A stretch of 64,000 nucleotides of DNA, from positions 3,968,001 to 4,032,000 of the forward strand of contig NZ_CAAHFG010000001.1 in NCBI RefSeq assembly GCF_900890425.1, given 5' to 3'. Origin of the DNA: Pontiella desulfatans (lineage in GTDB: Bacteria > Verrucomicrobiota > Kiritimatiellia > Kiritimatiellales > Pontiellaceae). The notes beneath the pieces are model-generated. The model had not been told where the DNA came from, searched no databases, and saw only the letters and a list, made by a program, of their open reading frames with translations. Below are positions 1 to 37,331 of this stretch, piece after piece. The translations under genes and the position numbers were made by a program. The first letter of the stretch is position 1, and each line of letters starts with the position of its first letter.

Positions 1-315
1 CCCGGCCAAGTGGAAGCCTTGCGCGAGGCGGGCTTTATTCTGGGAACAGCCTACCAGCTGGCGGACGATGTGCTGGACGCCTCCGGAAACGAAGCGGTTT
101 CCGGCAAGACCCTGGGCACCGACCACGATCGCGGAAAAACAACGGCCATCACCGCCACGGAACATGCGCCGGCCGACCCGGTCGACTATATCCATGCGCT
201 GCTGGATGCCTCTTCCGCCCAGCTCGCGGCCTGGCCGGAAATACAGGGAGCCTGGGATACGTTTTTAAACGTGACAATGAAACCCGTGCTTAGTAAACAT
301 CTTGCCGCTAGCTAA
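1..315 (+). CDS. Polyprenyl (farnesyl/geranylgeranyl-type) diphosphate synthase, C-terminal end, 5'-truncated by window edge
   Basis: The reading frame is open from base 1 and stops at 315, so only the last ~104 residues are present. The fragment carries the second aspartate-rich motif of trans-prenyltransferases (QLADDVLD, about residues 19-26 of the visible part), followed by the usual G-K-T-x-G-x-D-x-x-x-G-K-T pattern. In this family that motif binds the Mg2+-complexed isopentenyl diphosphate, and the enzyme builds isoprenoid chains in the cytoplasm. A GTG at 10 could be read as a start, but homology runs upstream of it, so the gene continues outside the window. Chain length cannot be judged because the first aspartate-rich motif is missing. 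The next gene, nqrA, is 277 bases away and probably a separate unit. Confidence 0.85.
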   Translation, partial: PGQVEALREAGFILGTAYQLADDVLDASGNEAVSGKTLGTDHDRGKTTAITATEHAPADPVDYIHALLDASSAQLAAWPEIQGAWDTFLNVTMKPVLSKHLAAS

Positions 316-592
316 GCGGTTCAAGGAATCGGTTTTAAGCGAAAAAAGCATACATGAGCTACTTTATAACAATTTCTGCTTTTAACGATGGAAATGAATC
401 GGTATAGAGATACCCATTAAGCAGTCCAAAGCTCTCCATGAACGATGCGTACTGCACAAACGAGTGATGAAATTGTACAAATTCGAGACCATTTGCTACA
501 AGACAAGCTAACTTGAAACGAATAGGATCACGGGCTTTTCAATGAACTGAAAAGAGTGGGTTTTGTACAAGAAATCGAGGAGTGAAAACAGA

Positions 593-1951
593 GTGGCTAA
601 CTTCAAAATAAAAAAAGGCTTCGACGTGAAGGTGATCGGCCGACCGAAAACCACCGTTGAGGAATATGCGAGCCAGCAGCTTTTCGCGGTCTACCCTTCC
701 GAGTTCGAAGGGCTGAAGCCCCGCCTTTTGGTTAAGGCAGGCGACACCGTGAAGCGCGGCGACGTGTTGTTCGAAAACAAGAAGAACGAGAAGATGGTCT
801 TCCGTTCCCCGTGCAGCGGCACCATCCGGGCCGTCAACCTGGGCGCGCGCCGCTTCCCGGTCGAGATCCTGATCGACCGCGATCTGCAAAGCACCGAGAA
901 CGTCACCTTCGAAACCTACACCCAGGATTCCGTTGGCCAGCTCTCCCGCGAACAGATGGCCGACCATCTGCTGAATGCCGGGCTCTGGCCGCTGATCAAG
1001 CAGCGCCCGTTCAGCAAGATCGCCGATCCGGACACGGCCCCGAAGGCCGTCTTCATCAACGCCGCCAATTCCGCCCCCTTCCAGGCGGACTTCAGCGTGG
1101 TGTTGAAAGGCGACGAAGACGCCTTCCAGACCGGCATCAACGCACTGGCCCGACTCACCGAAGGCAAGGTGCACCTGTGCAAATCGGCGGGTTCGGATAT
1201 TCCGGATTTCCAGCATGCGGAAAGCCACACCTTTGCCGGCAAGCATCCGTCGGGCAACACCAGCGTTCACATCAACCGCATCAGCCCCATCCTGCCGCAC
1301 GACACGGTTTATACCCTGGCGGCACAGGACGTGATTCTGATCGGCAAGCTGCTCACCACCGGCGAGCTTCCGAAAACCAAGGTGATCGCCCTTGCGGGCC
1401 CCGCGGTCAAGGAGGAGTTCCGCCAGTATTACAAGGTGCAGCTTGGCGCCAGCCTCCAGCCGTTGCTTGAAAAGACCCTCGAGGGCGAAGAAGTCCGCAT
1501 CATCAACGGAAACATTCTCTGGGGAGAAAAGGTCCAGGCCGACACCTGCGTGCCCTACTATGGCTCCGAACTGTTCGCCCTCGAGGAAGACCGCTCCCGC
1601 CACCTGATGGGCTGGACGATGCCCGGGCTGTTCCAATACAGCTCGCATCGCGTCAACCTGTCGTCGGTCATGGGCTTCGCCCACGAGTGGAAACTGGGCA
1701 CCAGCATGCATGGCAGCAAGCGCGCGATGGTCGTGACCGGGTGGATGGACAAACACCAACCGCTCAACATCATGACCGACTTTCTCATGCGCGCCTGCCT
1801 CGCCCACGATACCGACGAGATGGTCCAGCTCGGCATCCTGGAAACGGATCCTGAGGATTTTGCGCTGGCCTCGTTTGTCGATCCGCACAAGACCGATGTC
1901 TGCGGCATCATCAAGCGCGGGCTTGAGGAGATCGAGGAGGAAGGAATTTAA
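593..1951 (+). CDS. nqrA: Na+-translocating NADH:quinone reductase subunit A (NqrA)
   Basis: First gene of a complete nqrABCDEF operon. NqrA is the cytoplasmic-face subunit of the Na+-NQR complex, which passes electrons from NADH to quinone and pumps Na+. The 452-residue product starts MANFKIKKGFDVKVIGRPK and has the Rnf/Nqr-A N-terminal lipoyl-like region (around residues 55-85, with KAGDTVKRGDVLFENK), as expected for NqrA. The GTG at 593 is preferred because GAGGAG lies about 10 bases upstream (577-582); a longer frame back to a TTG at 563 lacks this. The stop TAA shares its last base with the nqrB start, implying translational coupling. No clear sigma-70 promoter was found in the 277-base upstream gap; a weak TTGTAC...TACAAG pair near 473-502 is only a possibility. 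Confidence 0.95.
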   Translation: MANFKIKKGFDVKVIGRPKTTVEEYASQQLFAVYPSEFEGLKPRLLVKAGDTVKRGDVLFENKKNEKMVFRSPCSGTIRAVNLGARRFPVEILIDRDLQSTENVTFETYTQDSVGQLSREQMADHLLNAGLWPLIKQRPFSKIADPDTAPKAVFINAANSAPFQADFSVVLKGDEDAFQTGINALARLTEGKVHLCKSAGSDIPDFQHAESHTFAGKHPSGNTSVHINRISPILPHDTVYTLAAQDVILIGKLLTTGELPKTKVIALAGPAVKEEFRQYYKVQLGASLQPLLEKTLEGEEVRIINGNILWGEKVQADTCVPYYGSELFALEEDRSRHLMGWTMPGLFQYSSHRVNLSSVMGFAHEWKLGTSMHGSKRAMVVTGWMDKHQPLNIMTDFLMRACLAHDTDEMVQLGILETDPEDFALASFVDPHKTDVCGIIKRGLEEIEEEGI

Positions 1952-21736: not shown

Positions 21737-22066
21737 ATGGCTGCAAAGAAAACAGCAAAAAAAGCACCGGCCAAGAAAGCCGCTGCGAAGAAAGCACCCG
21801 CGAAAAAAGTCGAAGCGAAAAAAGCACCGGCCAAAAAAGCCGTAGCGAAAAAAGCGCCGGCTAAAAAAGCTGCTGCGAAAAAAGCCCCGGCCAAGAAAAA
21901 AGCCGCGGCAACGAAAGCCAACAAGGTGAAGTACACTGCCGAGCAGGTTTATTCCATGATCGAGCAAGCTGCCTACTTTGCCGCCGAGAACGACGGGTTC
22001 GCCAAAGATCCCGCCGAATACTGGGCTGACGCAGAGGCGTCGATCTACGCCATGGTCAAAGGTTAA
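21737..22066 (+). CDS. Histone H1-like Lys/Ala/Pro-rich protein with DUF2934 domain
   Basis: 109 residues. Residues 1-60 are built from repeats of the type A-A-K-K-A-P-A-K-K, as in bacterial histone H1-like nucleoid proteins. Residues ~65-109 form a DUF2934 domain (I-E-Q-A-A-Y-F-A-A-E-N-D-G-F ... P-A-E-Y-W-A-D-A-E). The basic tail would bind DNA or RNA non-specifically; DUF2934 has no known function. The ATG at 21737 has AGGAGA 7-8 bases upstream; the open frame begins at 21590, but that part has no family features. A strong terminator follows, so the gene is its own unit. Confidence 0.85.
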   Translation: MAAKKTAKKAPAKKAAAKKAPAKKVEAKKAPAKKAVAKKAPAKKAAAKKAPAKKKAAATKANKVKYTAEQVYSMIEQAAYFAAENDGFAKDPAEYWADAEASIYAMVKG

Positions 22067-24325: not shown

Positions 24326-26145
24326 TTAGTCGCTCGGACCCAATCGGCACTCGATTTTCATGGCCCCCGAAACACCGGGAACGGCATTTGTGGAAACGTT
24401 GATCCTTCCGCCTTCCACGCTCGGCAACGGTGCATTGGAGCCGGTTGAGAGATCCATCAGCACCGGTGTGTACGTGCGCCCCGACACGGACGGCGTCCAT
24501 TCGATGATCCACTTTCCGTTTTCAACCACGCTGTTGGTGATTTGCAGGAACGACCGCCCATTGGTCGGAACCGAGCCCGCCACAAACTCCTGCCAAGTGG
24601 AAAATTGGTCGCCGTCGGCATCGTTCGTCACAATGGAGGAGAATCCATTAGTCCATCCATGACTGGCCAACCAATGCTCGGGCACGGCCACCGGCGCATT
24701 CGTCACGAGGTTTTCGGCAAAGGTTGCATGGATTTCCATGTTCTGGTCGATCCGTTCCAGCAGCAATGTTTCCACGGCGCCGGTTGAAACGCCGTTCACC
24801 GTCACGTCGGCAATGTGATACCACTGCGCAGGGGTAATGGCAAAATGGAACGTGTTTGATCCCGGCGAGGCATAGTGCAGTCCCGACGGGCTAATGGATC
24901 CATGGGCTCCGGCGGTGGCCATCACGAGCCATTGCGGACCGGCATCCGTCAGCTCAACCTCGATGCGCAGCATACCCATCGACTGCGAAGCCGGAACAAT
25001 GATGGAGTTGGCCGGCCCCACCACCGAGCCAACTTGCTCGGAGAACGGTTGCCCGAGGGCGGGAGCGCGCATGACGCGGTAGCGGCGGTCTTCGATGGAG
25101 GGTGTCCAACTGATCAGCAGGCTACCATCCTGGTTCAGGATCTGCGTGATACGGAAGAACGACGCGGCGTTGGTCGGCGAAGAGCCAGCCACATATTCCT
25201 GCCAGACCGCGAAGCCGTCGCCATCAAAATCGTTCGTCACCACGGCATCGAGATTATTCGTCCATCCGAAGCGGGCCAGATAGCGTTCCGGCACGGCCAC
25301 CGGAGCACTCACCACCAGGTTCAGCGCAAACTCGGCCTGGATGCCCACGTTGGCCGTCACGTTCGAAAGCGTCAACGATTCCACCGCGCCCACCGAAACG
25401 CCGTTGGTTTTGACGTCCGCCACGTGATACCACTCATCGGGTGTGATGCTGAAGTGGAACGTGTTCGAGCCCGGCGTCGCATACTGCAAACCCGCAGGCG
25501 AAATGCTGCCGTTTGCCCCAGCGAACGCAATCACCGTCCACTGCGGCGGTGCTTCGGAAAGGCCGACTTCAACACGATACATTGCCACATCGTCCATTGT
25601 CGAAGCCGTCAACGTATCCGCCGGGCCGTCCAATGTCGCGACCTCCGCATAAGTGCCTCCCGGTTCAGGCGCCCTCATCAACTTGTAACGGCGTCCCGCA
25701 ACCGAAGGCGCCCACTTGACCAGTACATTCGTACCGGTGGTGTCGATCTCGATGATGCGGAACAGGGATGCCTTGTCGGTCGGCGACGTGCCGGCAACAT
25801 ATTCTTGCCATGCGGCGAAGCCGTCGCCGTCGAAATCGTTGGTGTTGGCGAATTCAAAGTTGTTCGTCCAGCCATATCCAGCCAGCCAAGCCTCGGGTAC
25901 CGGCACCGGTGCATTGGTCACCATGTTTTGCGCGAAGGTGGCGTGGATCAATCCATTTTCAACGACATTGATGAAGGTGTGCGAAAGCACGGGCCCCAGC
26001 GACAGGCCATTGGCAAAGACCTCGTCCACATGCCAATAGTCGTCCGGCACCACCGCGAAGGTTTGGTTTTCGCCCTCGTAGACCGTAACGCTGCCTTCCG
26101 GCTCAAGATGGCCGCCCTCGCCCGAGGTCGCCGTCAGCGTATGGC
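24326..26145 (-). repeat. Three tandem ~200-residue protein modules at the C-terminus of the giant protein
   Basis: Units at about 26145-25546, 25545-24939 and 24938-24326. Each has a beta-rich part like divergent InlB B-repeats (G-x-N/H-G-S-I-S-P-x-G-L-x-Y) and then V-P-E-x-W/Y-L-A-x-x-G-W-T-N, a D-x-D-G-D-x-F-x-x-W-Q-E-Y/F-V-A-G Ca2+-loop-like stretch, and a W-x-P-S-x-x-x-R-x-Y closing strand. Units 2 and 3 are closest to each other (for example P-G-S-N-T-F-H-F and H-I/V-A-D-V shared). The last copy is the C-terminus itself, a position where PVC secreted proteins often carry this module. Confidence 0.8.
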
Positions 26146-29100
26146 TCGGGCCGGCATCCACCACCGTAAACGCCAGCGCGGGATTCTGCGGCGCCGCGCC
26201 GGCAAAGAGCCGGACGCGCCCGTCGGCGGTACCGAGCAGAATATCAGGAACCCCGTCGCCGTTGACATCGGCAACGAATGGACGGCTGCGCGTCCAAGTA
26301 TCAGGTGTATCGACCAAGGACCAAGCGGTATCGCCGAAGAACGCCCACAGATCGCCATCGGTGTCGCCGCTAACCAAATTAGTCACGCCGTCGCCGTTGA
26401 GATCGGTGAACGAAGGTGCGGAACGCCCGGCATCGACCACCGGGCCAACCACGGTTGCCGTGCCATCCAGTCCGATCATCCGGAAGAGGCCGTCCATACC
26501 GCCCACGACAATATCATTGGTGCCATCGGCATCATAATCAACCACATCGACCACCGCACGAGCAGAAGCCCCGCTCCAGATTTCTGCACCGGCACCGATC
26601 GTCCAGGTGTTGGATTCGATCGCCGAGGTTTCGTAGAGCCAGACGCTGCCGTCGGCCCGGCCCACCACCAGATCGGCCAGTCCGTTTTGCGTTAGGTCGG
26701 CCAGGCGGAAACTCAGGCCGAGACAACCGGCTCCCGGAACCGCCAGCGGCGCGCCGTCCACTTCAAGCAATCCCGAATAGACGGGCGCCGGATTGGTGGA
26801 CGAACCTTCGTTGAGATAGATTTGAATGCGCCCTTCGCTGTTCGTGGTCTTTTCGCCAACCAGCAGGTCGCCCAGGCCATCGCCATCGAAATCGTGCCAA
26901 ACCGGAGCGGCGTAGCTGTGGACGGAAACCAGCTCTTCATGGTTTCCATAGACCGGAATCCCCAGCTCCGTGTAATCGCCGTCGGCCTCGAGCGAGTTGC
27001 CCGCAACGTCTTCGACCAACCGCCCGTCGAGCTGCAACGTCCACTCGCCGAGACCGAGCGTGTTGGTCGGAACCGTCCAAACCAGCGTGTTCGACGCGGA
27101 ATGCCAGTCGAGATCCTCCAGCGCCGGAACCACCGTCGCGTTGCTCGAAACGATCCGCAGCGCGGCATCGATCAGGCCGTCCGCCATCAACTCCGGCACG
27201 TTGACCGTTTCGTCGAAGACCATGGTGGCCGATGCAACGGCGAGATAGTTCGTGGCATCCTTCAGCTCGCCACCAAGGAAGAGATCGACCGTCGGCGGTG
27301 TGAGATCAATGGTCAGCGGCAGATCGTTATCGGACGCATTGCCCGCTTCATCCGTGCAGCGCACCGTCAGCTCGAACGCGCCGGCACCGCCGAGGGCCAC
27401 TGGAATATCCAGCTCCGTATTCACGACGCTTGCGGAAGCCAGCAGGTTCGACCCTTCGAAGATTTCAACCCACAACCCCGTCTCGGGCAACGTGCCGATC
27501 ACGCTGAAGTTAGTGACCGAAAGAACCGCATCCGATTCCGACAGACCGGTGTCAGGCGAAACGCCCAGCCCCGCGACTGGAAGCGGCGGAGCCGTATCGA
27601 GCAGTTTTTCAACCACAGTTACCGTGAACGTGTTCGTTGCCGCAACCGACGGCGCACCGTCGTCCGTTGCAATCACAGAAACAGGAACGCTCTGCCCGAC
27701 TAGATTGGTCGGCGGACTCCAGTCGATCAAACCGCTAACCGGATCAATATTCATTCCTGCCGGATAGCCGTCATCCAGACCATAGGTAATCGTCTGCGCC
27801 GGCACATCATGATCCACCGCGACCGCCGTAACCCGCAGTTCACTTCCGACCGCAACAACCTGCGGATCAATGGCCGTGAGTACCGGAGCCGTATTCACTT
27901 CATCAACCGACACCGTGAACCATTGCGATGAAATACCGACCGGCATGCCCGAATCCATTACGGTGACTTGAATCTGCGCATGCGTGCCGCCGTCCAGCTC
28001 GCTGGTCTGCCAGCGGATCAAGCCGTCATCATCCACGGTGACGCCCGTGCGGTCCGAAACCACACTGTAGCCCAGTTCCGCGTTGTCGCCATCCGGATCG
28101 TCCGCAACAACCTGATAGGTCAACGTTGCGCCCTCGGTAATATTCGTATCCGGAATCAGGGCAATGGACGGAAGCTGGTTGATGATCGATACCGTTGTTA
28201 CCGCCTCCTGAACCGCGGCTTTGCTTTCAACATTTCCAGCGGTGTCGGTTGCGATACTGTAAAAGGCATACGTCTGCCCGGCTTCGCCTTGGAAGATGGA
28301 CGAGATGCGCGTGGTGTCGTCCTGCCAGACCGCCCACGGGCCGCCGTTGGTCGAAACCATAATGTCAAAGGTTGCCAGCGCAACATCGTCTGCGCCGCCC
28401 CACATGACCGGGATATAGACGCTGCTTGCCGCGGGCAGCGGCTCGACGGAACTGGAAGGCGGCGTGACATCGGCGGCGATTTCGGCATAGCGCAAGGTGT
28501 AAACCCCGGTACTGTCGTAATCAAGCAGGTGCAGGTAGTTTTCATAAACCGGCCGCTTGCCCTGGCCGATAAACGTGCGGTCCGTTGTCCACACATTCGT
28601 ACCGACCGGGATCACCAAACCATCCGAACGTACCACTTCCGCCAACTCGAACAGACCATCCGCCGGGTCGGGGAACCGCAGGTACGTCCAGCCCGTCTGC
28701 GCGCCGTTGGTCAGCGCCAACTCCACCATCAGGTTGCCAGCAACTACGTTGGAGCAGCTGGCCCCTTCGCCAAGATATGCAACGTTCGTAACCGTGCCGT
28801 CGCTCAGATGGAGGGTATCGCCGATCTGCGCTTCACCCAATTCATAATCCTCATTGGTGAAGAAATCGGGCTGGCCGTCGTCCTGGTCGCCCAGCGCATT
28901 CGCCATCCGGATCATTTCATAAATCCGCACCTCTTTGATCAGTGAAATACGCGGATCGCCGAAGCCGTCGAGATGCTCGAACGTGGCTTCATAATCGCTG
29001 AAGAAACCGTGCAGGCTCGCCGTCATCCACCACGTTGCGGTTTTACGTTGGGCGGGATCAATATTACCAAAGTCGGCCATCAGCGATGGCGAACGCGCTT

Positions 29101-32100
29101 CTCCGCCCATTTGCGAGCCGATGATTTCAAAGTCGATCAACAGGCCCTTTTCGTTATCGACAATTTCCGGCTGGGCGGAATTGATGGTTAAATTACGGGC
29201 CGCACCGCCGCCTTTGTTTTCAACAACCACCGCCAATGCAAACGGCTCCTTGGCTTCAACCGGGTCGGTATGCGGGTCATCGCTGACGACATCGCGCTGA
29301 TGGAAATATTTCAAATGCAGCGCCGCATCCGGACGCACGGTGACCGGCACCGGCTGAACCGGAATACTGACCGGCGTTCCGTCCTGCACATAACCGATGG
29401 TGCCGCTGATCAGGTATACCGTATCCACGGAAGGCGCGGCGGAATCGCGCGGAATCAGCGTCCACTGAACCGTAGCGTCCGCCCCGAGGCCGAGGGCATC
29501 GGAGCCGTCAATTGCACTCAGCCCCTGCATATCCGTTACGCGGATATTAAACCGGTCGTTGGCCGACAGACCGGACGAATCGTGGACATTGAGATCGAAC
29601 GCAACATGCTGCAACCCTGTTTCCACTTTCTGATTCGACAGCTCCAGCGTTGCCCGGAAAGCCGACCGGGTCATTACCGCCTGCTGATCGATCTTGATCC
29701 GCACTTTTGCGCAAACGCCGTCGGAGTCTTCCATCAGGCTGTTTGTAAACTCGGTGAACACCGTTTCAAATTCATCAGCCGGATCGGCATAGCCCTGCTG
29801 CCGGCTTTCGGACAGCGCAACATCCATTGCCAGCTCAACGGCAAGCAACTCGTTTTCATCAATAAAGTCAGTCGATTCGCCCGGCGGCACATCCGCCACC
29901 GTTTTAATGTTCCGCGCATAATAATCCCACGTCCGGTTAAAGCGCTCCGCGACCGGCATCACAGCGGCCGTCGGGATACCCAACGACACGGCCAGACTTT
30001 CGAGCTCGGACATTTCCGCCGCACTGATCACCTCGGCTTCTTCACTGCCGGACTGCATAACTTCGACCAGCTTTCCGTGCCACTCTCTCTGTTCCTCGCT
30101 ATCCATGGCCATCACGCGTTCGCGGGAGCCCAACAGAATCTGATAACGGGTATAGGTGAGTTCGATTTTTGCCAATGCCGCATCCAGCTCGGCCGATTGG
30201 CCGCGCAGTTCCGGCCCGACCACCGAATACCATGGGTCGTACGGACTGGATGAATCAGTTGATAAACTGTCTCCCCCTTTACTGGACGGCGATGTCAGGC
30301 AGTCAATCAGCGAGTAATAGCAGAGAAGAGGATTCGTTCCCGGAATACAGCCGATAGCAGCTAGCGCGGCATCTTTGCTCGTCCGGGTGTAAGCGGCCTT
30401 ACCGGCACCGTAAGCGCAGCCCATCGGCGTAAATCCGATAAAGCATTCAAACGCCCACAGCGGCAGGCAATCGCAATTCAGCTCTCCCACCTCGCTTTCA
30501 AACTCCACGCTGTTGATGGAACCGCGTCCACCGCCTCCGCCTCCGTATGCTGCCGCGACAGCTCCACCGCCACAGCCGCCGCCCGCGCCGGACGCCGGAA
30601 TCGGAACCAGTACCGGAACCTTTATTCCACAGATATATGCATAGCTCACCTTTCCACCGAAACCGCAGCCGCCTCCACTACTGGTGGCAACCTTATAGGC
30701 GGATACGTTGTCCGGGCCGGGAACCCCGCCGGTACGCTGAACAACGACCGGAATGATCATGGAACTCTTCGCGGGAATCGTCCCGATCTGTTCGATCAGC
30801 GGAGTAACACGGTAATCCGGGTGCGAATTAAATGTAAAGGCGCCCTCCTCGGCATCAATGAAGCCGTGGTTTTCAATCGTGAAATTAATAACCTTCGTCT
30901 GCCCCAACTGATCCAGCCCGGAAACATCCAAAACCGATGGTGTAACCGTGACCACCGGCGCGGGCACATTCACCTCGTAAGTCGATTCGATTGAAATCTG
31001 ATACCGGTCTTCAAATTCGATTTCCTCGACCGACCAACGGTATGTAACGAACTCGCGGGAGATGAATACTTCCGTCCGATTCAGCTCGCCCGCATGAACC
31101 TGCAGGTTTTTAACCGACCGCGTATGGTTGGCTGAATCCACCTCAATCGTGTACCAGCCTTCCAGCAACCCATCAAAACGGACGTTGCCGTTGGTGCCGG
31201 AAACACCGCTCAAAATTTCTTCAGCCGTGATGGCATCGCGCACAACAACCTCTGCGCCAACCACCGGCGGACTGCCTTCCGCAAAATAGGTGAATTCATC
31301 CGTAACCGTTACTTCGAGATCGCCGGTTTCATCCGAAACCACCCTGAACTCAAACGGCAGGTTTTTATTCGATCCATTCGCCGGCACCAGCACCATGTGG
31401 CCGGAATGCAGCGTCAGCATTTCGGACGGCCCCGGCTGCAGCAGCAGGGAAACCATTGCAAAATCACCGGGGGCGATCGACGGAACCTGCCCCGTCGAAG
31501 CCGGCATCATCCACGAAAGGTCGGGCAACAGCACATTAATGGCGCCGGATTCCAGACCGCCTTCGTTTTTAATGATGAAATTGTACACCTTCGAACCGCC
31601 GCGCAGCACGGATGATTTCAGCAGCTCCGGATAAACCACCAGTTTCGGCGTCAGCGGAATCACGTTCAGCAGCACCGGAACATCAATCGTCACGCCCTGC
31701 TCCGTTGAAAGCCGAACGGTAAAGCTGTGGGCCCCAGAATAACCGATGTCACCATCGATGGAAACCGACAGCCCGACCGAACTGCCCGCCGTCAGCACGG
31801 AATTGGAGAGTACCGCTTCCACCGAGAACCCTGCCGGTGCGCCGACCAACGAAAGGCTCAACCCGGTCAGATCATAAACCGTCGGGTTGCTGACGGAGCC
31901 GACCACCGTGGTCGATCCGCCTTCAATAAACACAATCGCGTCCGACGGGAAGTCCGGCAATACGGTCAGGATGGCAAAGGTGTCTTGCGTCGGAGCCTCC
32001 GAAAGCCCCGGATGGCAAGCCCCCACTTCATAGTCGCCGCCCTCGTTCGGAAGCGGCGTCCATTCCAGTTCATAATCCCCGTTCGCATCCGTGACCGCCG

Positions 32101-35100
32101 AAACCACCCGCTCGGCTCCGCCGACGCGGATATGCAGGTTCACCGTAACGAACGGTGCTTTTGTTCCGCCGCTGCGGACGGCTGAACCGTAGAACAGGAT
32201 CGGGGTGTTTGCCGGAATCAGTTCCGCATCGGTCTGAACCGTAACCGACCACGGAATACCCACGGTGAGCGGCTGCCCATAAATCTTCGCGTTGTTCCAT
32301 TCAACCAGTTCGTCGACCGAAAGCCCGGCATCTGCAATCACAAACAAGCTGTATTCGCCTGCCCCTTGCGGCGCACGGACATTAATGGTTTTTTCGATGC
32401 TTCCGCCCGCCGGCATATCCTGCACCATCACATCCTGCGCGAGCAGGATATTGCCGTCTGCAACACCGTCCTGCGCAAGGAAAATACGCTGGACAAAGCT
32501 TTCGTCCGAAAGCCCGGAGCCGCGGTTTTCCAGCCAATAGGTCACATCAAAGGTTTCGTCTGATTCAAGGTCGGTTTCGGATGCAATTGCACTGATCACG
32601 AAGTCGGGCTTGATTTCGTCCGTAACCACCAGCGTCAACTGGGCCGGGCCATAGTTCGTGGCCGATGCCGTAACCAGCACCGACCGTGTTCCGTTCGTTC
32701 CATCAAGCCCGATCATGCTGACCGGCAGATCGGTAACGCCGTTGGAAAGAACCGCCGAAACCGGCAGTTCCAGCTCGCCCGGCCGGTCAACCGAAAGGGT
32801 AACTTCAACCGGATTGTTGGTTGCGCCGCCCCGACGCAGCACCACCAACTGGTTGGTTTCGCCCTCGAAGATCCAGCCTTTGCCATACTGCAGCTCAAGC
32901 GTCGGCCCTTCATCGTCGCCGACTTCCAGCGATTGAACCGAGGTCTGGATGATCGCGGAATCGTCTATCCGGATTTCCCCGCTGATCAGCGTGATTTGCG
33001 ATCCGTCGAGCAGTTCATCATCCACCGCACCGATCAGGAAATCGGCAAAACTTTCGTTGGCCGGAATCACCACCGACTCCGGCACATCCGCCGCTGTCGG
33101 ATCACTGTTGGTCAGCCAGACCGTCAGCGGTTCCGTTGAAGTAATCGACCGCTCGATCCGCCCAACCACGGCATTCGGCCCGGCGGATTCCGGAACAATC
33201 GTCCGGCTCAGCGAAAGGCTGATCCCCGGCCAATCATCATCCACGAGCGTAACGGTTGTTTCTGCCGACACCGCACTAGGCGCGGAAACCGTAATACGGA
33301 CATCGATAATATCCTCAATCGTCTCATCATCCAGTCCGGTGATCTCAAATGCAGCACTTGTCTGGCCTGCCGGAATAACTGGCGCCGCACCGGGTTGCAC
33401 CTGCGACAGATGCGATGAACCAACGGTTACGGTTAAGTCGCTGCTACGTGCACGCTGCACCGAAACCGTGCCGACCAGCGTCATCCCTTCAAACAGTGCA
33501 TCGTCAATCAGCACCGAAAGAACCGGCTGCGGTTCCAGCGTAACGGTATTGGCCTGTATGGTGGTATTCGTTCCGGCGGCGGTCACGCTGACCTGCAGTT
33601 CATAGTCCCCCGAAGGCAGGCTGGTTACCGGCAGGCTTGCGGTTGAACCGTTCGACAACACCGTCCAGCTTCCGGTGCCCACTTCGCGCATTTTAAATTC
33701 GATCGCACCAATACCGTCGGCATCGCGGGCCTCCACCGCCAACGTTGCATCGCGGTCAATCACTAGTCCGTTCGCGATGGCCACGCTATTCGCGGTGAAG
33801 GATTGAATGACCGGAGGCAGGCGCAGGGTTTGCGAGGCTTCGGCGGGCCAATAGCTTTCGTTTCCGTCCTGAATGGCGGCCACGCGGACGGTACCGCCCT
33901 GGATGACGGAGAGGCTATTGCTGTTGACGATCTCCGCGGTCTGGCTGGGAGTGACGGTGTACCGAACGGGAAGACCGCTCGATGCCGTGGCGCTTAGCGG
34001 GATCAATGCAGGGCCGGGCACGATGGGGACGAATGTGATGGCTTGGCCAACCTTGAAGACCTGGATCGATTCCACCACCGGATCGGTGTCGCCGAGGATA
34101 TTGACCGTGGAGACGGCGAACCAATCGTTTTCGACCTCGGCCAAAGACCCGAGTACCACGCGGGTGGTTAGCGACGTTGCGACGGGTACCATGGAGGCAA
34201 TGTTGCCGATGGCCGAGGTGGAACGATAGATTTCGTAGCGTTGCACAAACTGCGAGGGTTCGGCGGAATCCCATTCGATTTCCACTTGTCCATCACGTTC
34301 GGTCAGATAGAGGTTTCCGGGATTCGGCAACCAAGTGACGCCGAGGATGGTGGAGCTGCCGTTGTCGATGTCGAAGATATCGACGGCGACGATGCGGAAG
34401 TTGTAGCCGTGGGCGGCGAGCAGGTTGGTGGCGGCATAGGAGAGCGTGCCGACCGGGAGCCATTCGGGTTCGGCGCTGCCGCCGAAATAGACTTCGAAGT
34501 GGTCGAGGAAGCCGGTGCCCTCTTCGGGCGGATCCCACGTGAAGACCATGGAATCGGGGCCGGCCTCGACGGCCAGGTTGCGCACGGCACCCACGCCGCC
34601 GACGGAGGCCTGGCAGGAGACGGAGTAGACCGCCGGATCATAGTTGCCGCCCGCATCTTCGCCCACAACGGCCACATAGAAGATGCCGCCGCTGTCGAGT
34701 CCTCCGAGCGTATACGAAAGCCTGCCGCCGTCAATCGTTTCGAACGGCTCCATGCCGGACACGTCTTCGAAATAGGTGTCGGCGACATAGATGCGGTATG
34801 ACGTCAGGTCGTTTTGCGCCAGCTCATTGTAGAGGGGCCACGCAAGCTCAACCGCCTGATAAGCTTCAGTCGATGTGATCGCCGTAAAACCGCTGCCGAT
34901 ACCCGTGACCGGTGCAGGCGCAACGGCATCGGCCACCACAATCGAGAGTTCCCGCGAGATGACTTCGGAATAGGTGTTCGAATCGGTTGCACCGACAAAC
35001 AGGCCGACTTCGCGCGACACAAGCTCTCCAGTAAATACATAGGCCGCCGAATAGACGATTCCGTAATCCTGGTTGCCAAGTCCGTCTACGGGCACCACGG

Positions 35101-36025
35101 CAAAATAGTGCGTTTGCCAGGCCGGCAAACCGTCGAGCATCACAACCTGGGTTCCCGCCATAACGTTGGTATAAACCGACAGGGTCGATACATCCGTGAA
35201 GGGTTGGTCTGAATAGTAGATGTCGTAGCGCACGATATCGCGTTGGGCCAATTCGTTATAGGCACTCCAATCCAGCTCAACGCTTTCCCCGGTCGGACTG
35301 GTGGAGACCACGAGATCGGGAATGCGGTCGGGCGGCCCGGCGGCATCAACCACGATGCTGAGTTCCCGGGAGACCACCTCAGGCAGGGAGAGATCGCCGT
35401 GGCCATTGAAGAGGGAAATCTCGCGGGAAACCACTTCGGCGCCGAGCACATAGGATGCGGTATAGGTGTAGGCGGGATCGTAGTTGCCCTGCGCATCGAC
35501 CGGAACCACGACAAAGAAATGATCCTGCCATTCGGTTAGCCCGGTGAAAAGCAACGAGAGCTGCCCGGCGGGAATATTGGTGTAGGCGGTCATGCCCGAA
35601 ATATCGGTGATGGCGGTGCTGGAATAGTAGATGGCATAGTAGACGACATCCCTTTCGGCCAACTCGTTATAGCTACTCCAATCCAGTTCGACCTCGCTGC
35701 CCGTTGGACTGGAAACAATGCCGAGGGTGTCGATCGCCGCGGGAGGTTCGTCGGAGGAGATAAGGATGCTGATTTCGCGGGAGAGGGTTTCGGGGGCTTC
35801 GTTGGAAAAGGCCTGCCCGATAAAGAGGGTGCATTCGCGGGAGGCGATTTCCTTCCATTCGTTGGTCGATCCTGCCCCCACGAAGAGCGATGTTTCGCGG
35901 GAGACCACCTCGCGCAGGAGGACTTCACCGAACGACGAAAATGCAAGAAAGGCCCAGACAGCTAACATGCAAACGCGCAACGCGCTGCTTCTTGAAGCCT
36001 GCCAAAAAGTTCTACCCGAAATCAT
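24326..36025 (-). CDS. Giant (~3,899 aa) multidomain secreted/surface protein
   Basis: Signal peptide near residues 17-33 (VCMLAVWAFLAFSSF). In order, by nucleotide: seven S-R-E motif repeats with three fibronectin III-like units (35911-34945); more Fn3-like units (to ~33950); Calx-beta-like domains (~33520-32650, with D-D-x-x-F-E-G-x-T); a CARDB-like domain (~32610-32260); a carboxypeptidase-regulatory-like domain (~31310-31060); a Gly/Cys-rich segment (~30700-30290); a helical charged segment (~30230-29700); Ig/cadherin-like domains (~28190-26930); FG-GAP/VCBS-like D-x-D-x-D-G repeats (~26900-26150); and three ~200-residue C-terminal modules (26145-24326). The ATG at 36025 has GGGAG/GGAGA ~8 bases upstream and follows the glycine-rich gene by 58 bases; an ATG at 36034 is too close to that site. 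No enzymatic domain was recognised. Adhesion or carbohydrate/Ca2+ binding is inference. Confidence 0.85.
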   Translation of the reverse strand: MISGRTFWQASRSSALRVCMLAVWAFLAFSSFGEVLLREVVSRETSLFVGAGSTNEWKEIASRECTLFIGQAFSNEAPETLSREISILISSDEPPAAIDTLGIVSSPTGSEVELDWSSYNELAERDVVYYAIYYSSTAITDISGMTAYTNIPAGQLSLLFTGLTEWQDHFFVVVPVDAQGNYDPAYTYTASYVLGAEVVSREISLFNGHGDLSLPEVVSRELSIVVDAAGPPDRIPDLVVSTSPTGESVELDWSAYNELAQRDIVRYDIYYSDQPFTDVSTLSVYTNVMAGTQVVMLDGLPAWQTHYFAVVPVDGLGNQDYGIVYSAAYVFTGELVSREVGLFVGATDSNTYSEVISRELSIVVADAVAPAPVTGIGSGFTAITSTEAYQAVELAWPLYNELAQNDLTSYRIYVADTYFEDVSGMEPFETIDGGRLSYTLGGLDSGGIFYVAVVGEDAGGNYDPAVYSVSCQASVGGVGAVRNLAVEAGPDSMVFTWDPPEEGTGFLDHFEVYFGGSAEPEWLPVGTLSYAATNLLAAHGYNFRIVAVDIFDIDNGSSTILGVTWLPNPGNLYLTERDGQVEIEWDSAEPSQFVQRYEIYRSTSAIGNIASMVPVATSLTTRVVLGSLAEVENDWFAVSTVNILGDTDPVVESIQVFKVGQAITFVPIVPGPALIPLSATASSGLPVRYTVTPSQTAEIVNSNSLSVIQGGTVRVAAIQDGNESYWPAEASQTLRLPPVIQSFTANSVAIANGLVIDRDATLAVEARDADGIGAIEFKMREVGTGSWTVLSNGSTASLPVTSLPSGDYELQVSVTAAGTNTTIQANTVTLEPQPVLSVLIDDALFEGMTLVGTVSVQRARSSDLTVTVGSSHLSQVQPGAAPVIPAGQTSAAFEITGLDDETIEDIIDVRITVSAPSAVSAETTVTLVDDDWPGISLSLSRTIVPESAGPNAVVGRIERSITSTEPLTVWLTNSDPTAADVPESVVIPANESFADFLIGAVDDELLDGSQITLISGEIRIDDSAIIQTSVQSLEVGDDEGPTLELQYGKGWIFEGETNQLVVLRRGGATNNPVEVTLSVDRPGELELPVSAVLSNGVTDLPVSMIGLDGTNGTRSVLVTASATNYGPAQLTLVVTDEIKPDFVISAIASETDLESDETFDVTYWLENRGSGLSDESFVQRIFLAQDGVADGNILLAQDVMVQDMPAGGSIEKTINVRAPQGAGEYSLFVIADAGLSVDELVEWNNAKIYGQPLTVGIPWSVTVQTDAELIPANTPILFYGSAVRSGGTKAPFVTVNLHIRVGGAERVVSAVTDANGDYELEWTPLPNEGGDYEVGACHPGLSEAPTQDTFAILTVLPDFPSDAIVFIEGGSTTVVGSVSNPTVYDLTGLSLSLVGAPAGFSVEAVLSNSVLTAGSSVGLSVSIDGDIGYSGAHSFTVRLSTEQGVTIDVPVLLNVIPLTPKLVVYPELLKSSVLRGGSKVYNFIIKNEGGLESGAINVLLPDLSWMMPASTGQVPSIAPGDFAMVSLLLQPGPSEMLTLHSGHMVLVPANGSNKNLPFEFRVVSDETGDLEVTVTDEFTYFAEGSPPVVGAEVVVRDAITAEEILSGVSGTNGNVRFDGLLEGWYTIEVDSANHTRSVKNLQVHAGELNRTEVFISREFVTYRWSVEEIEFEDRYQISIESTYEVNVPAPVVTVTPSVLDVSGLDQLGQTKVINFTIENHGFIDAEEGAFTFNSHPDYRVTPLIEQIGTIPAKSSMIIPVVVQRTGGVPGPDNVSAYKVATSSGGGCGFGGKVSYAYICGIKVPVLVPIPASGAGGGCGGGAVAAAYGGGGGGRGSINSVEFESEVGELNCDCLPLWAFECFIGFTPMGCAYGAGKAAYTRTSKDAALAAIGCIPGTNPLLCYYSLIDCLTSPSSKGGDSLSTDSSSPYDPWYSVVGPELRGQSAELDAALAKIELTYTRYQILLGSRERVMAMDSEEQREWHGKLVEVMQSGSEEAEVISAAEMSELESLAVSLGIPTAAVMPVAERFNRTWDYYARNIKTVADVPPGESTDFIDENELLAVELAMDVALSESRQQGYADPADEFETVFTEFTNSLMEDSDGVCAKVRIKIDQQAVMTRSAFRATLELSNQKVETGLQHVAFDLNVHDSSGLSANDRFNIRVTDMQGLSAIDGSDALGLGADATVQWTLIPRDSAAPSVDTVYLISGTIGYVQDGTPVSIPVQPVPVTVRPDAALHLKYFHQRDVVSDDPHTDPVEAKEPFALAVVVENKGGGAARNLTINSAQPEIVDNEKGLLIDFEIIGSQMGGEARSPSLMADFGNIDPAQRKTATWWMTASLHGFFSDYEATFEHLDGFGDPRISLIKEVRIYEMIRMANALGDQDDGQPDFFTNEDYELGEAQIGDTLHLSDGTVTNVAYLGEGASCSNVVAGNLMVELALTNGAQTGWTYLRFPDPADGLFELAEVVRSDGLVIPVGTNVWTTDRTFIGQGKRPVYENYLHLLDYDSTGVYTLRYAEIAADVTPPSSSVEPLPAASSVYIPVMWGGADDVALATFDIMVSTNGGPWAVWQDDTTRISSIFQGEAGQTYAFYSIATDTAGNVESKAAVQEAVTTVSIINQLPSIALIPDTNITEGATLTYQVVADDPDGDNAELGYSVVSDRTGVTVDDDGLIRWQTSELDGGTHAQIQVTVMDSGMPVGISSQWFTVSVDEVNTAPVLTAIDPQVVAVGSELRVTAVAVDHDVPAQTITYGLDDGYPAGMNIDPVSGLIDWSPPTNLVGQSVPVSVIATDDGAPSVAATNTFTVTVVEKLLDTAPPLPVAGLGVSPDTGLSESDAVLSVTNFSVIGTLPETGLWVEIFEGSNLLASASVVNTELDIPVALGGAGAFELTVRCTDEAGNASDNDLPLTIDLTPPTVDLFLGGELKDATNYLAVASATMVFDETVNVPELMADGLIDAALRIVSSNATVVPALEDLDWHSASNTLVWTVPTNTLGLGEWTLQLDGRLVEDVAGNSLEADGDYTELGIPVYGNHEELVSVHSYAAPVWHDFDGDGLGDLLVGEKTTNSEGRIQIYLNEGSSTNPAPVYSGLLEVDGAPLAVPGAGCLGLSFRLADLTQNGLADLVVGRADGSVWLYETSAIESNTWTIGAGAEIWSGASARAVVDVVDYDADGTNDIVVGGMDGLFRMIGLDGTATVVGPVVDAGRSAPSFTDLNGDGVTNLVSGDTDGDLWAFFGDTAWSLVDTPDTWTRSRPFVADVNGDGVPDILLGTADGRVRLFAGAAPQNPALAFTVVDAGPSHTLTATSGEGGHLEPEGSVTVYEGENQTFAVVPDDYWHVDEVFANGLSLGPVLSHTFINVVENGLIHATFAQNMVTNAPVPVPEAWLAGYGWTNNFEFANTNDFDGDGFAAWQEYVAGTSPTDKASLFRIIEIDTTGTNVLVKWAPSVAGRRYKLMRAPEPGGTYAEVATLDGPADTLTASTMDDVAMYRVEVGLSEAPPQWTVIAFAGANGSISPAGLQYATPGSNTFHFSITPDEWYHVADVKTNGVSVGAVESLTLSNVTANVGIQAEFALNLVVSAPVAVPERYLARFGWTNNLDAVVTNDFDGDGFAVWQEYVAGSSPTNAASFFRITQILNQDGSLLISWTPSIEDRRYRVMRAPALGQPFSEQVGSVVGPANSIIVPASQSMGMLRIEVELTDAGPQWLVMATAGAHGSISPSGLHYASPGSNTFHFAITPAQWYHIADVTVNGVSTGAVETLLLERIDQNMEIHATFAENLVTNAPVAVPEHWLASHGWTNGFSSIVTNDADGDQFSTWQEFVAGSVPTNGRSFLQITNSVVENGKWIIEWTPSVSGRTYTPVLMDLSTGSNAPLPSVEGGRINVSTNAVPGVSGAMKIECRLGPSD

Positions 36026-36083
36026 CCGGCGCATCTCCCTGCAAGGTTGCGCTTCCGGCCAAAAGACCGGAAGCAGGCATGCG

Positions 36084-37331
36084 CTACGGACGGACGACCC
36101 GGACTTGCACCGCCGAATAGCCAATTTTCACCGTGGGCTGGGCGATCCAGCGCAGTACCAGGGGATCGAGATTGTTCGTTGCGGACAGCGTTGCGGCATA
36201 TTGTGCATAGGTCCCGCTGTGGCGTGGAGTTAGGCGCACGAGCACCTGCGAAGCGGACTCAACGTTGGTGGTTTCCACCACGATTTGCGTGCTGTTGGTT
36301 TGCGGCAGGGCGGCATCGGCCCCATAGGCTCCGAACGATGCCCGAGGATCGCCGGGAATCGAAACACCTCCGACGGAAACAATGCGTACTTCGGGTGCTC
36401 CGGCAGGCGGCCACAGCAACGCGGTTGCACCGGACTCCAGCCCGAGGACACTCGGGTCGGGCGAAATGGAAAAATTGCCGTCATTGGTTACGCGTTCGAC
36501 GCGGATGCGGCCTTCACCGCCATCCCAATATGCAGTGTTCCCATATGCAATTATGCTTCCTGTTCCCGATAGGCTGTCGGACACCAACCGGATGCCGCCG
36601 CCGCTTCCGGAACCGGAATCTTCTGCGTTATAGCTTATGCCTGCACCTCCGATTGCCCGAATGGTTCCGTTCAGGGTGATGGCCTGTGTTGCGGCAATTA
36701 AGATGGCACCACCACCCGCCCCGCCGCAATCGCCAGAGTTGCTTCCCGCACCGCCGGAACCGCCGATGAGCGGAATGAGCGACGGGTTGCCATAGGCTGC
36801 CGCCGTGTTGTTTTCACCCACGGTGCCATAGCTGCCCCCCGCGCCATGGGTGTAGGAGAAATCCGTCCGGCCGCCGCCGACGCCTAGACCGGCGGAACGG
36901 CTAAGACCTGTGGCATCGCCCAACCCCCCGCGGAATCCACCAGGCCCGCCTTCGGCATGGATGTTGGAATATCTGGGCATGCTGCCCTGCCCATCCAAAT
37001 TGACTGTTCCTAAAATGGTTACATCCCCGTTGACCAGCCAGACGACCGGCGCGCGGCTCGGATGGTTGGCAAACGTCAACGTGGCGCCGTTGGTGACGAC
37101 CACGCTGGAATATTTAAAGACGACCGCCCACTTGTTGGAGTCGTATACGCCATTGCCCGTGCCCGCGTCGTCCCACGCGCCCGTGGTGGCCAGCGAAAGA
37201 TCGATCTGCGTGTTTTCCGTGATGAGCAACGCGCCGTCCGAACCATCCGCCCCCGGCACCGTGATCGCCGCCTGCGCAACCGTGGCACCCAGCGCCAGAA
37301 CCAATCCGATTATGATTTTCCAGTTTTTCAT
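36084..37331 (-). CDS. Secreted glycine-rich repetitive protein, operon partner of the giant protein
   Basis: 415 residues. Signal peptide MKNWKIIIGLVLALGATVAQA. Residues ~60-130 look like a beta-helix/solenoid start (V-V-V-T-N-G-A-T-L-T-F ... V-W-L-V-N-G-D-V-T-I-L-G-T-V-N-L-D-G-Q-G). Residues ~130-260 are very glycine-rich (G-G-A-G-S-N-S-G-D-C-G-G-A-G-G-G). This recalls secreted myxobacterial and PVC glycine-rich solenoid proteins; no enzyme motif is seen. AAGGAG lies 7-9 bases before ATG 37331. It precedes the giant gene by 58 bases on the same strand, so co-transcription is likely. Confidence 0.75.
   Translation of the reverse strand: MKNWKIIIGLVLALGATVAQAAITVPGADGSDGALLITENTQIDLSLATTGAWDDAGTGNGVYDSNKWAVVFKYSSVVVTNGATLTFANHPSRAPVVWLVNGDVTILGTVNLDGQGSMPRYSNIHAEGGPGGFRGGLGDATGLSRSAGLGVGGGRTDFSYTHGAGGSYGTVGENNTAAAYGNPSLIPLIGGSGGAGSNSGDCGGAGGGAILIAATQAITLNGTIRAIGGAGISYNAEDSGSGSGGGIRLVSDSLSGTGSIIAYGNTAYWDGGEGRIRVERVTNDGNFSISPDPSVLGLESGATALLWPPAGAPEVRIVSVGGVSIPGDPRASFGAYGADAALPQTNSTQIVVETTNVESASQVLVRLTPRHSGTYAQYAATLSATNNLDPLVLRWIAQPTVKIGYSAVQVRVVRP

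Follow-up and report, generated by a model that had tools for sequence, protein, structure and literature searches.

Secreted or surface-exposed proteins of several thousand residues have been described in the Planctomycetota–Verrucomicrobiota–Chlamydiota (PVC) group and in other bacteria (PMC12057145 and works cited therein), among them Giant1–5 of Apilactobacillus (PMC12863079), and their function is largely uncharacterised (PMC12057145; PMC12863079). A giant open reading frame (ORF), likewise of thousands of residues and with a predicted signal peptide, is found in a 64,000-nucleotide stretch of the Pontiella desulfatans genome (contig NZ_CAAHFG010000001.1, positions 3,968,001–4,032,000), referred to here as the window. 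Unlike those giants, it has a well-delimited core that is conserved and holds a cassette open to exchange; this core ties many such proteins to toxin operons.

The Rhs/YD-repeat polymorphic toxin systems (Zhang et al. 2012, PMC3482391) are the other point of comparison. In relatives of the giant, the two halves of the core flank proteins with RHS repeats and an Rhs core, the tips of which differ. Ankyrin and leucine-rich repeat (LRR) proteins, listed among polymorphic-toxin immunity proteins in the searched passages of that paper, are encoded after two of these Rhs genes, and other versions end in Hint domains. The giant itself has no RHS repeats, toxin tip, Hint domain or immunity gene. A two-part frame of this kind was found neither in the searched passages of Zhang et al. 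nor in the remaining literature searched, with subscription journals mostly outside coverage; a methanotroph S-layer paper naming similar genes proved to be unrelated. On balance, the giant is probably a surface scaffold or adhesin that shares the operon frame of Rhs toxins and carries no toxin.

Two conserved halves and the segment between them

The core (giant residues ~1395–2549) was searched for in the P. desulfatans genome and in PVC genomes. The former has two paralogues and the latter have 52 related loci, and plasmid-borne copies in Nostoc, Eleftheria terrae and Methylomonas koyamae were recovered by tblastn of the second half of the core (half2). A search of PVC genomes for this architecture had been proposed in the initial annotation; it did yield core relatives, and with them the two-part core, which that annotation had missed, and its splitting. 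Alignment showed the core to be conserved as a single unit of ~1,150 residues, many positions of which are invariant. Conservation is found in a first half (half1, core 1–400) and in half2 (core 740–1153), and the middle can be aligned within groups only. In the giant, as in the rest of the family, half1 precedes half2 on the same strand and the invariant residues are present. The relationship of the giant to the Rhs-toxin operons is well supported, and its basis is a widespread frame in which two conserved halves enclose a cassette that can be exchanged.

Of 241 Verrucomicrobiota genomes in 132 genera, 18 (in 15 genera) contain half2 according to its profile, which makes half2 accessory. In 14 of the 16 regions fetched for the survey, both halves are on the same strand, with half1 upstream. 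Among 62 fused relatives, 30 carry a type A cassette, 24 a type B cassette and eight an unclassified one, and none contains Rhs or Hint. The split loci have Rhs (six), Hint (seven) or an A/B cassette (two, both in metagenome-assembled genomes and possibly frameshifts) between the halves. Wherever Rhs or Hint stands there (13 of 13 relatives), half2 is encoded separately and has a signal peptide of its own. Organisation and cassette type are associated with a Fisher value of about 3e-12, in which relatedness is ignored; a few survey loci represent the same place fetched twice (e.g., L033 and L132). The initial annotation had regarded homologues with the parts as separate, non-secreted proteins as evidence against its reading. 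The parts do occur separately, but they are themselves secreted, which alters the interpretation and leaves the predicted secretion unrefuted. Some of the unclassified cassettes (L124, L126–L128) resemble diverged type A by eye, and at G128:C1 4681450 and 4713171 half2 lies within open frames of 9,446 and 9,641 aa.

RHS_repeat matches with E < 1e-59 were obtained in L122, L129, L088, L155 and L156. In the G052 genome, the Rhs protein between the halves is fused to half1 at one locus and encoded by its own secreted gene at another. The Rhs proteins of L122, L129 and L088 differ in their C-terminal tips, and an LRR gene follows that of L129. Lipase-like (GHSxG) tips in L122 and L088 and a GIY-YIG-like tip in L129 are motif-level readings that found no confirmation in Pfam (E ≤ 0.05).

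The split is also present in P. desulfatans itself. In the C3 paralogue and in four related genomes (L083–L086), the first gene consists of half1 followed by a Gly-rich stretch and a Hint-like domain at the end. A ribosome-binding-site (RBS)-like sequence (AAGGAGGTGGCGCCATGA in the P. desulfatans copy) and an ATG open the second gene. Its signal peptide stands at the position of the invariant Cys of the fused proteins, and its product joins half2 at their Gly-Val-Cys. Programmed frameshifting at the C3 split was rejected, as the second ORF has these start signals of its own. At this locus (G000:C3 412903–436317; L079, L080), a 6,476-aa protein with a terminal Hint-like domain overlaps a 1,333-aa secreted half2 gene. 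In the Hint domains, the first Cys and a TxxH-like block are seen by eye; Pfam matches to the Hint clan are below the curated cut-offs, although several families of the clan concur. The other paralogue (G000:C4, about 70,000–86,000; L081, L082) is a fused protein of 5,269 aa that has the core and C-terminus of the giant and an entirely different N-terminus, in which near-identical domains are repeated.

The type A cassette of the giant has no match in Pfam, NCBIfam or PHROGs, and a profile search against PDB sequences gave nothing useful for it or for half2. The weak collagen VI match of these PDB searches sits in the Gly-rich stretch and is probably compositional, and the PHROGs and PADLOC scans returned weak, uninformative matches only. 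Type B cassettes (L042, L049, L050, L053–L056, L059, L060, L062, L063, L065, L069–L074, L078) have a Cys-Cys motif followed by a conserved Gly/Val-rich beta-like stretch, and one scanned example had no family match. A metagenome-assembled genome labelled Akkermansia muciniphila (L047, 7258–9902) has an unrelated insert of ~880 residues between the halves.

The type A cassette occupies the exact place of the relatives' Rhs proteins, and Cys-rich helical GFxPxG-type segments resemble, by eye, the pre-toxin helices of Rhs proteins. The giant might accordingly be a cryptic polymorphic-toxin-like protein that displays an effector or pore-forming segment. Several observations make this quite improbable: the cassette has no family match and no 19-residue window above hydropathy 1.6, and no immunity-like gene adjoins the giant, the downstream genes being of a housekeeping-like kind (an FAD/NAD oxidoreductase and a MiaB-like radical SAM protein). 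Furthermore, type A is the same domain across phyla, from Pontiella to Nostoc, which is unlike a polymorphic toxin tip. In the giant, Pfam (threshold E ≤ 0.1 throughout for this protein) and NCBIfam detected no RHS_repeat, Rhs_assc_core or toxin family, and its C-terminus is made of three structural modules. The genome as a whole has two weak RHS sites only, and Rhs toxins are essentially absent from it.

Predicted fold and operon context of the frame

The AlphaFold model of the core has a predicted local distance difference test score of 81 and a predicted template modelling score (pTM) of 0.56. Half1 is modelled as beta-sandwiches, one of them carboxypeptidase D/CnaB-like (Z about 12) and one PapD/NPCBM-like, and is followed by a disordered Cys/Gly stretch, the helical cassette and an all-beta half2. 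Each half contains one very long strand (model residues 299–327 and 742–770). The whole core aligned with the alpha-adaptin appendage over 105 residues (model 297..870, chain 720–824; Z 10.1), and half2 alone over 94 residues (chain 732–825; Z 8.1). Read from these range ends, the model suggests one beta-sandwich built from both halves across the cassette, with the first strand contributed by half1. Structure searches with the complete core returned mostly unspecific beta-sandwich folds and barely probed the helical cassette.

The Nostoc plasmid relative is fused, with a type A cassette. On the E. terrae plasmid (L155, NZ_CP106952.1, 2715–35648), the operon starts with a homologue of the Gly-rich partner encoded upstream of the giant (hidden Markov model E 2e-31), followed by half1, an RHS protein, an ankyrin protein and half2. 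Directly after these come a type II secretion set (gspG, GspF, GspE, three hypothetical genes, a protein with Secretin and Cohesin domains, and pseudopilins) and then a rhodanese and a transglutaminase. No such secretion genes lie beside the giant. On the Methylomonas plasmid, a half1–Rhs fusion is followed by rhodanese, transglutaminase and half2, and relatives of one or both of these enzymes are also encoded near half2 in L087, L088, L123 and L130. Adjacent type II secretion genes are not supported as a general feature.

It is possible, if doubtful, that the frame belongs to an undescribed secreted assembly, in which a strand-sharing protein pair shows exchangeable cargo (an Rhs toxin, a Hint-processed tail or a fixed domain) on the surface and, at least in some lineages, leaves the cell through a dedicated type II system whose secretin bears a cohesin domain. 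If so, giant PVC proteins would be single-chain versions of a secreted two-protein assembly.

In another explanation, the giant is a mosaic surface adhesin of the ordinary kind or a scaffold that binds glycans, for instance sulfated polysaccharides, and its Rhs and Hint relatives have merely borrowed common domains. Such an explanation agrees with the generic beta-sandwich folds that make up most structure matches, with the wholesale swap of the N-terminus in the C4 paralogue, and with the lifestyle of P. desulfatans, which degrades sulfated polysaccharides and produces sulfated exopolymers (PMC7356697). It is rather unlikely in view of the conservation of the core as a single unit, its fixed order with Rhs or Hint modules at 13 loci, and the partner homologue upstream in the Eleftheria operon.

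The giant reading frame, its modules and its neighbours

The frame is open on the minus strand from a TTG at 36124 down to the stop at 24326 (3932 aa), and the candidate ATG starts at 36034 and 36025 give 3902 and 3899 aa. The initial annotation, which gave no strand, was right in describing one intact long frame; its end corresponds to the second ATG. The level of G + C is flat across the ORF. In P. sulfatireligans (7.4 Mb genome, L038/G021, against 8.66 Mb for the host of the giant), the orthologue is a single frame of 3929 aa, preceded by the same Gly-rich partner gene, with 60.6% identity over 3865 aligned residues. Codon-position identities between the two are 0.71/0.76/0.45 and the approximate ratio of nonsynonymous to synonymous substitution rates is 0.21; the frame is thus real and under purifying selection. 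An assembly or annotation artefact merging several genes into one frame, the fusion that the initial annotation had named as evidence against itself, could be suspected from the relatives that have the parts as separate genes. The chance of it is negligible, as the same frame occurs in the independent P. sulfatireligans genome, which rules out assembly fusion, and about 60 other relatives are fused.

Most of the domains named in the initial annotation were recovered (Table 1). The N-terminus (MRRMISGRTFWQASRSSALRVCMLAVWAFLAFSSFGEV) is signal-peptide-like, and residues 47–51 are among the few Kyte-Doolittle windows above 1.6. The expected SRE repeats are present as paired units of ~20 residues, ~120 apart. 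Pfam supports fn3 (residues 513–581), CARDB, CarboxypepD_reg, He_PIG, Big_13 and FG-GAP. The suggested Calx-beta-like and cadherin-like domains have no supported match at the Pfam threshold, Big_9 being under its cut-off; immunoglobulin (Ig)-type domains (He_PIG, Big_13) follow the core. No enzyme family was found in the family searches, Pfam and NCBIfam among them, in agreement with the proposed giant secreted protein devoid of an enzymatic domain.

Table 1. Features of the giant ORF and its upstream partner (positions in the window).
Feature	Coordinates	Strand	Remarks
Giant ORF	24326..36034	minus	~3,902 aa from ATG 36034; alternative ATG 36025
Predicted Sec signal peptide	35927..36034	minus	sequence; hydropathy peaks at residues 47–51
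N-terminal SRE-motif repeats alternating with Fn3-like domains	34325..35917	minus	SRE motifs at residues 75–390
CARDB domain, residues 1172–1279	32288..32611	minus	Pfam 1.8e-10
Core half1, residues 1395–1795	30740..31942	minus	tandem beta-sandwiches including carboxypeptidase-regulatory/CnaB-like; very long strand near end
Cys/Gly-rich linker	30260..30679	minus	10 of the protein's cysteines; low model confidence
Type A helical cassette	29726..30232	minus	motif WNRT/FNRT..Y....P.G...DF
Core half2, residues 2134–2549, begins GVCAKV	28478..29725	minus	all-beta; own secreted gene in Rhs/Hint relatives
Ig/He_PIG/Big_13 domains, C-terminal of core	27305..28465	minus	Pfam
FG-GAP-like repeats	26165..26947	minus	Pfam 2.8e-10
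Three C-terminal modules, EF-hand-like DxDGDxF..WQE motif	24329..26146	minus	NF042425 match
Terminator-like hairpin at the stop codon	24318..24336	minus	pattern match; such matches in the region no commoner than in shuffles
Gly-rich secreted partner, 415 aa	36084..37331	minus	signal peptide; 49 bp upstream of the giant's ATG

The three C-terminal modules, also predicted initially, are true repeats with relatives at ~20 other sites of the same genome, and the NCBIfam matches in the giant are limited to them. They score 58.9 against the 50-bit cut-off of NF042425 (Amuc_1099 family pilus-like system protein), but only short stretches of this 321-position model are matched, three times (best 107–152); this is a shared module and not an Amuc_1099 equivalog. 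Proteins with these modules would be named "Amuc_1099 family" by NF042425, which may lead to wrong names in PVC genomes. The giant also differs from RTX adhesins exported by type I secretion, since it has an N-terminal signal peptide and no Pfam match to RTX nonapeptide repeats at that threshold. Alpha-2-macroglobulin/thioester proteins appear in its Foldseek list, but their CGEQ motif is absent from the translation.

The Gly-rich operon partner of the initial annotation was confirmed as a conserved neighbour, with a weaker homologue in Eleftheria. Strong homologues lie upstream of giants in L033 (= L132), L038, L050, L153 and the window, and in L146 upstream of an SRE/Fn3 protein lacking the core; in each of these six distinct loci, the protein has four or more SRE-type motifs in its N-terminal part. 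By hand count, SRE repeats are lacking in roughly seventeen giants whose upstream DNA is visible and contains no strong partner; they are also lacking in L045/L151 and L148, which have weaker partner relatives. In L027, SRE motifs are present and the contig ends just upstream. The partner tracks the N-terminal SRE repeats. Divergent genes for two ABC transporter proteins and a pseudopilin are located upstream of the giant, and ABC transporter and pseudopilin genes likewise in P. sulfatireligans. A tandem repeat at 21753–21909 of the window encodes KKAPA-like (histone H1-like) units.

Biological meaning of the frame

Taken as a scaffold or adhesin without a toxin, the giant would be built of beta-sandwich modules and exported by the Sec route to the cell surface or matrix; a surface location and a role in adhesion or scaffolding are probable. 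Half1 and half2 would fold toward each other, half1 lending a strand to the first sandwich of half2, and the folded halves would hold the intervening segment as a protruding cassette. In other bacteria, the frame consists of two separate secreted proteins with an Rhs-repeat toxin protein or a Hint-terminated tail between them, and in Pontiella and most PVC relatives of one chain, with a small conserved domain (type A in the giant) as the cassette. Such a protein would be a fixed surface adhesin or scaffold that no longer carries a toxin, or never did. The Gly-rich partner and the SRE N-terminus probably act together to display or anchor the protein.

Several points weigh against parts of this proposal. 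The strand sharing is read from the range ends of one prediction with modest pTM, the core relatives are not phylogenetically independent, and the type A cassette could be active. Dedicated secretion genes adjoin the frame in one record only (Eleftheria), and the T2SSF genes present in all 15 other (PVC) genomes checked are never beside half2. Evolution may have run from split with a toxin to fused without one or the reverse, and the location, binding and secretion of the giant are predictions.

Giant secreted proteins are common in PVC bacteria and mostly uncharacterised. One conserved core unites a number of those from Verrucomicrobiota and Planctomycetota with a Nostoc protein, and the same core ties them to Rhs-toxin operons of other bacteria. 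The proposal has concrete parts that can be tested: the halves would be expected to bind each other and the partner to depend on the SRE repeats, and the role of the cassette can be assayed. A further suggestion is that some genes of the "hypothetical Ig-like" kind, where they adjoin Rhs toxins, are structural components of the toxin system.
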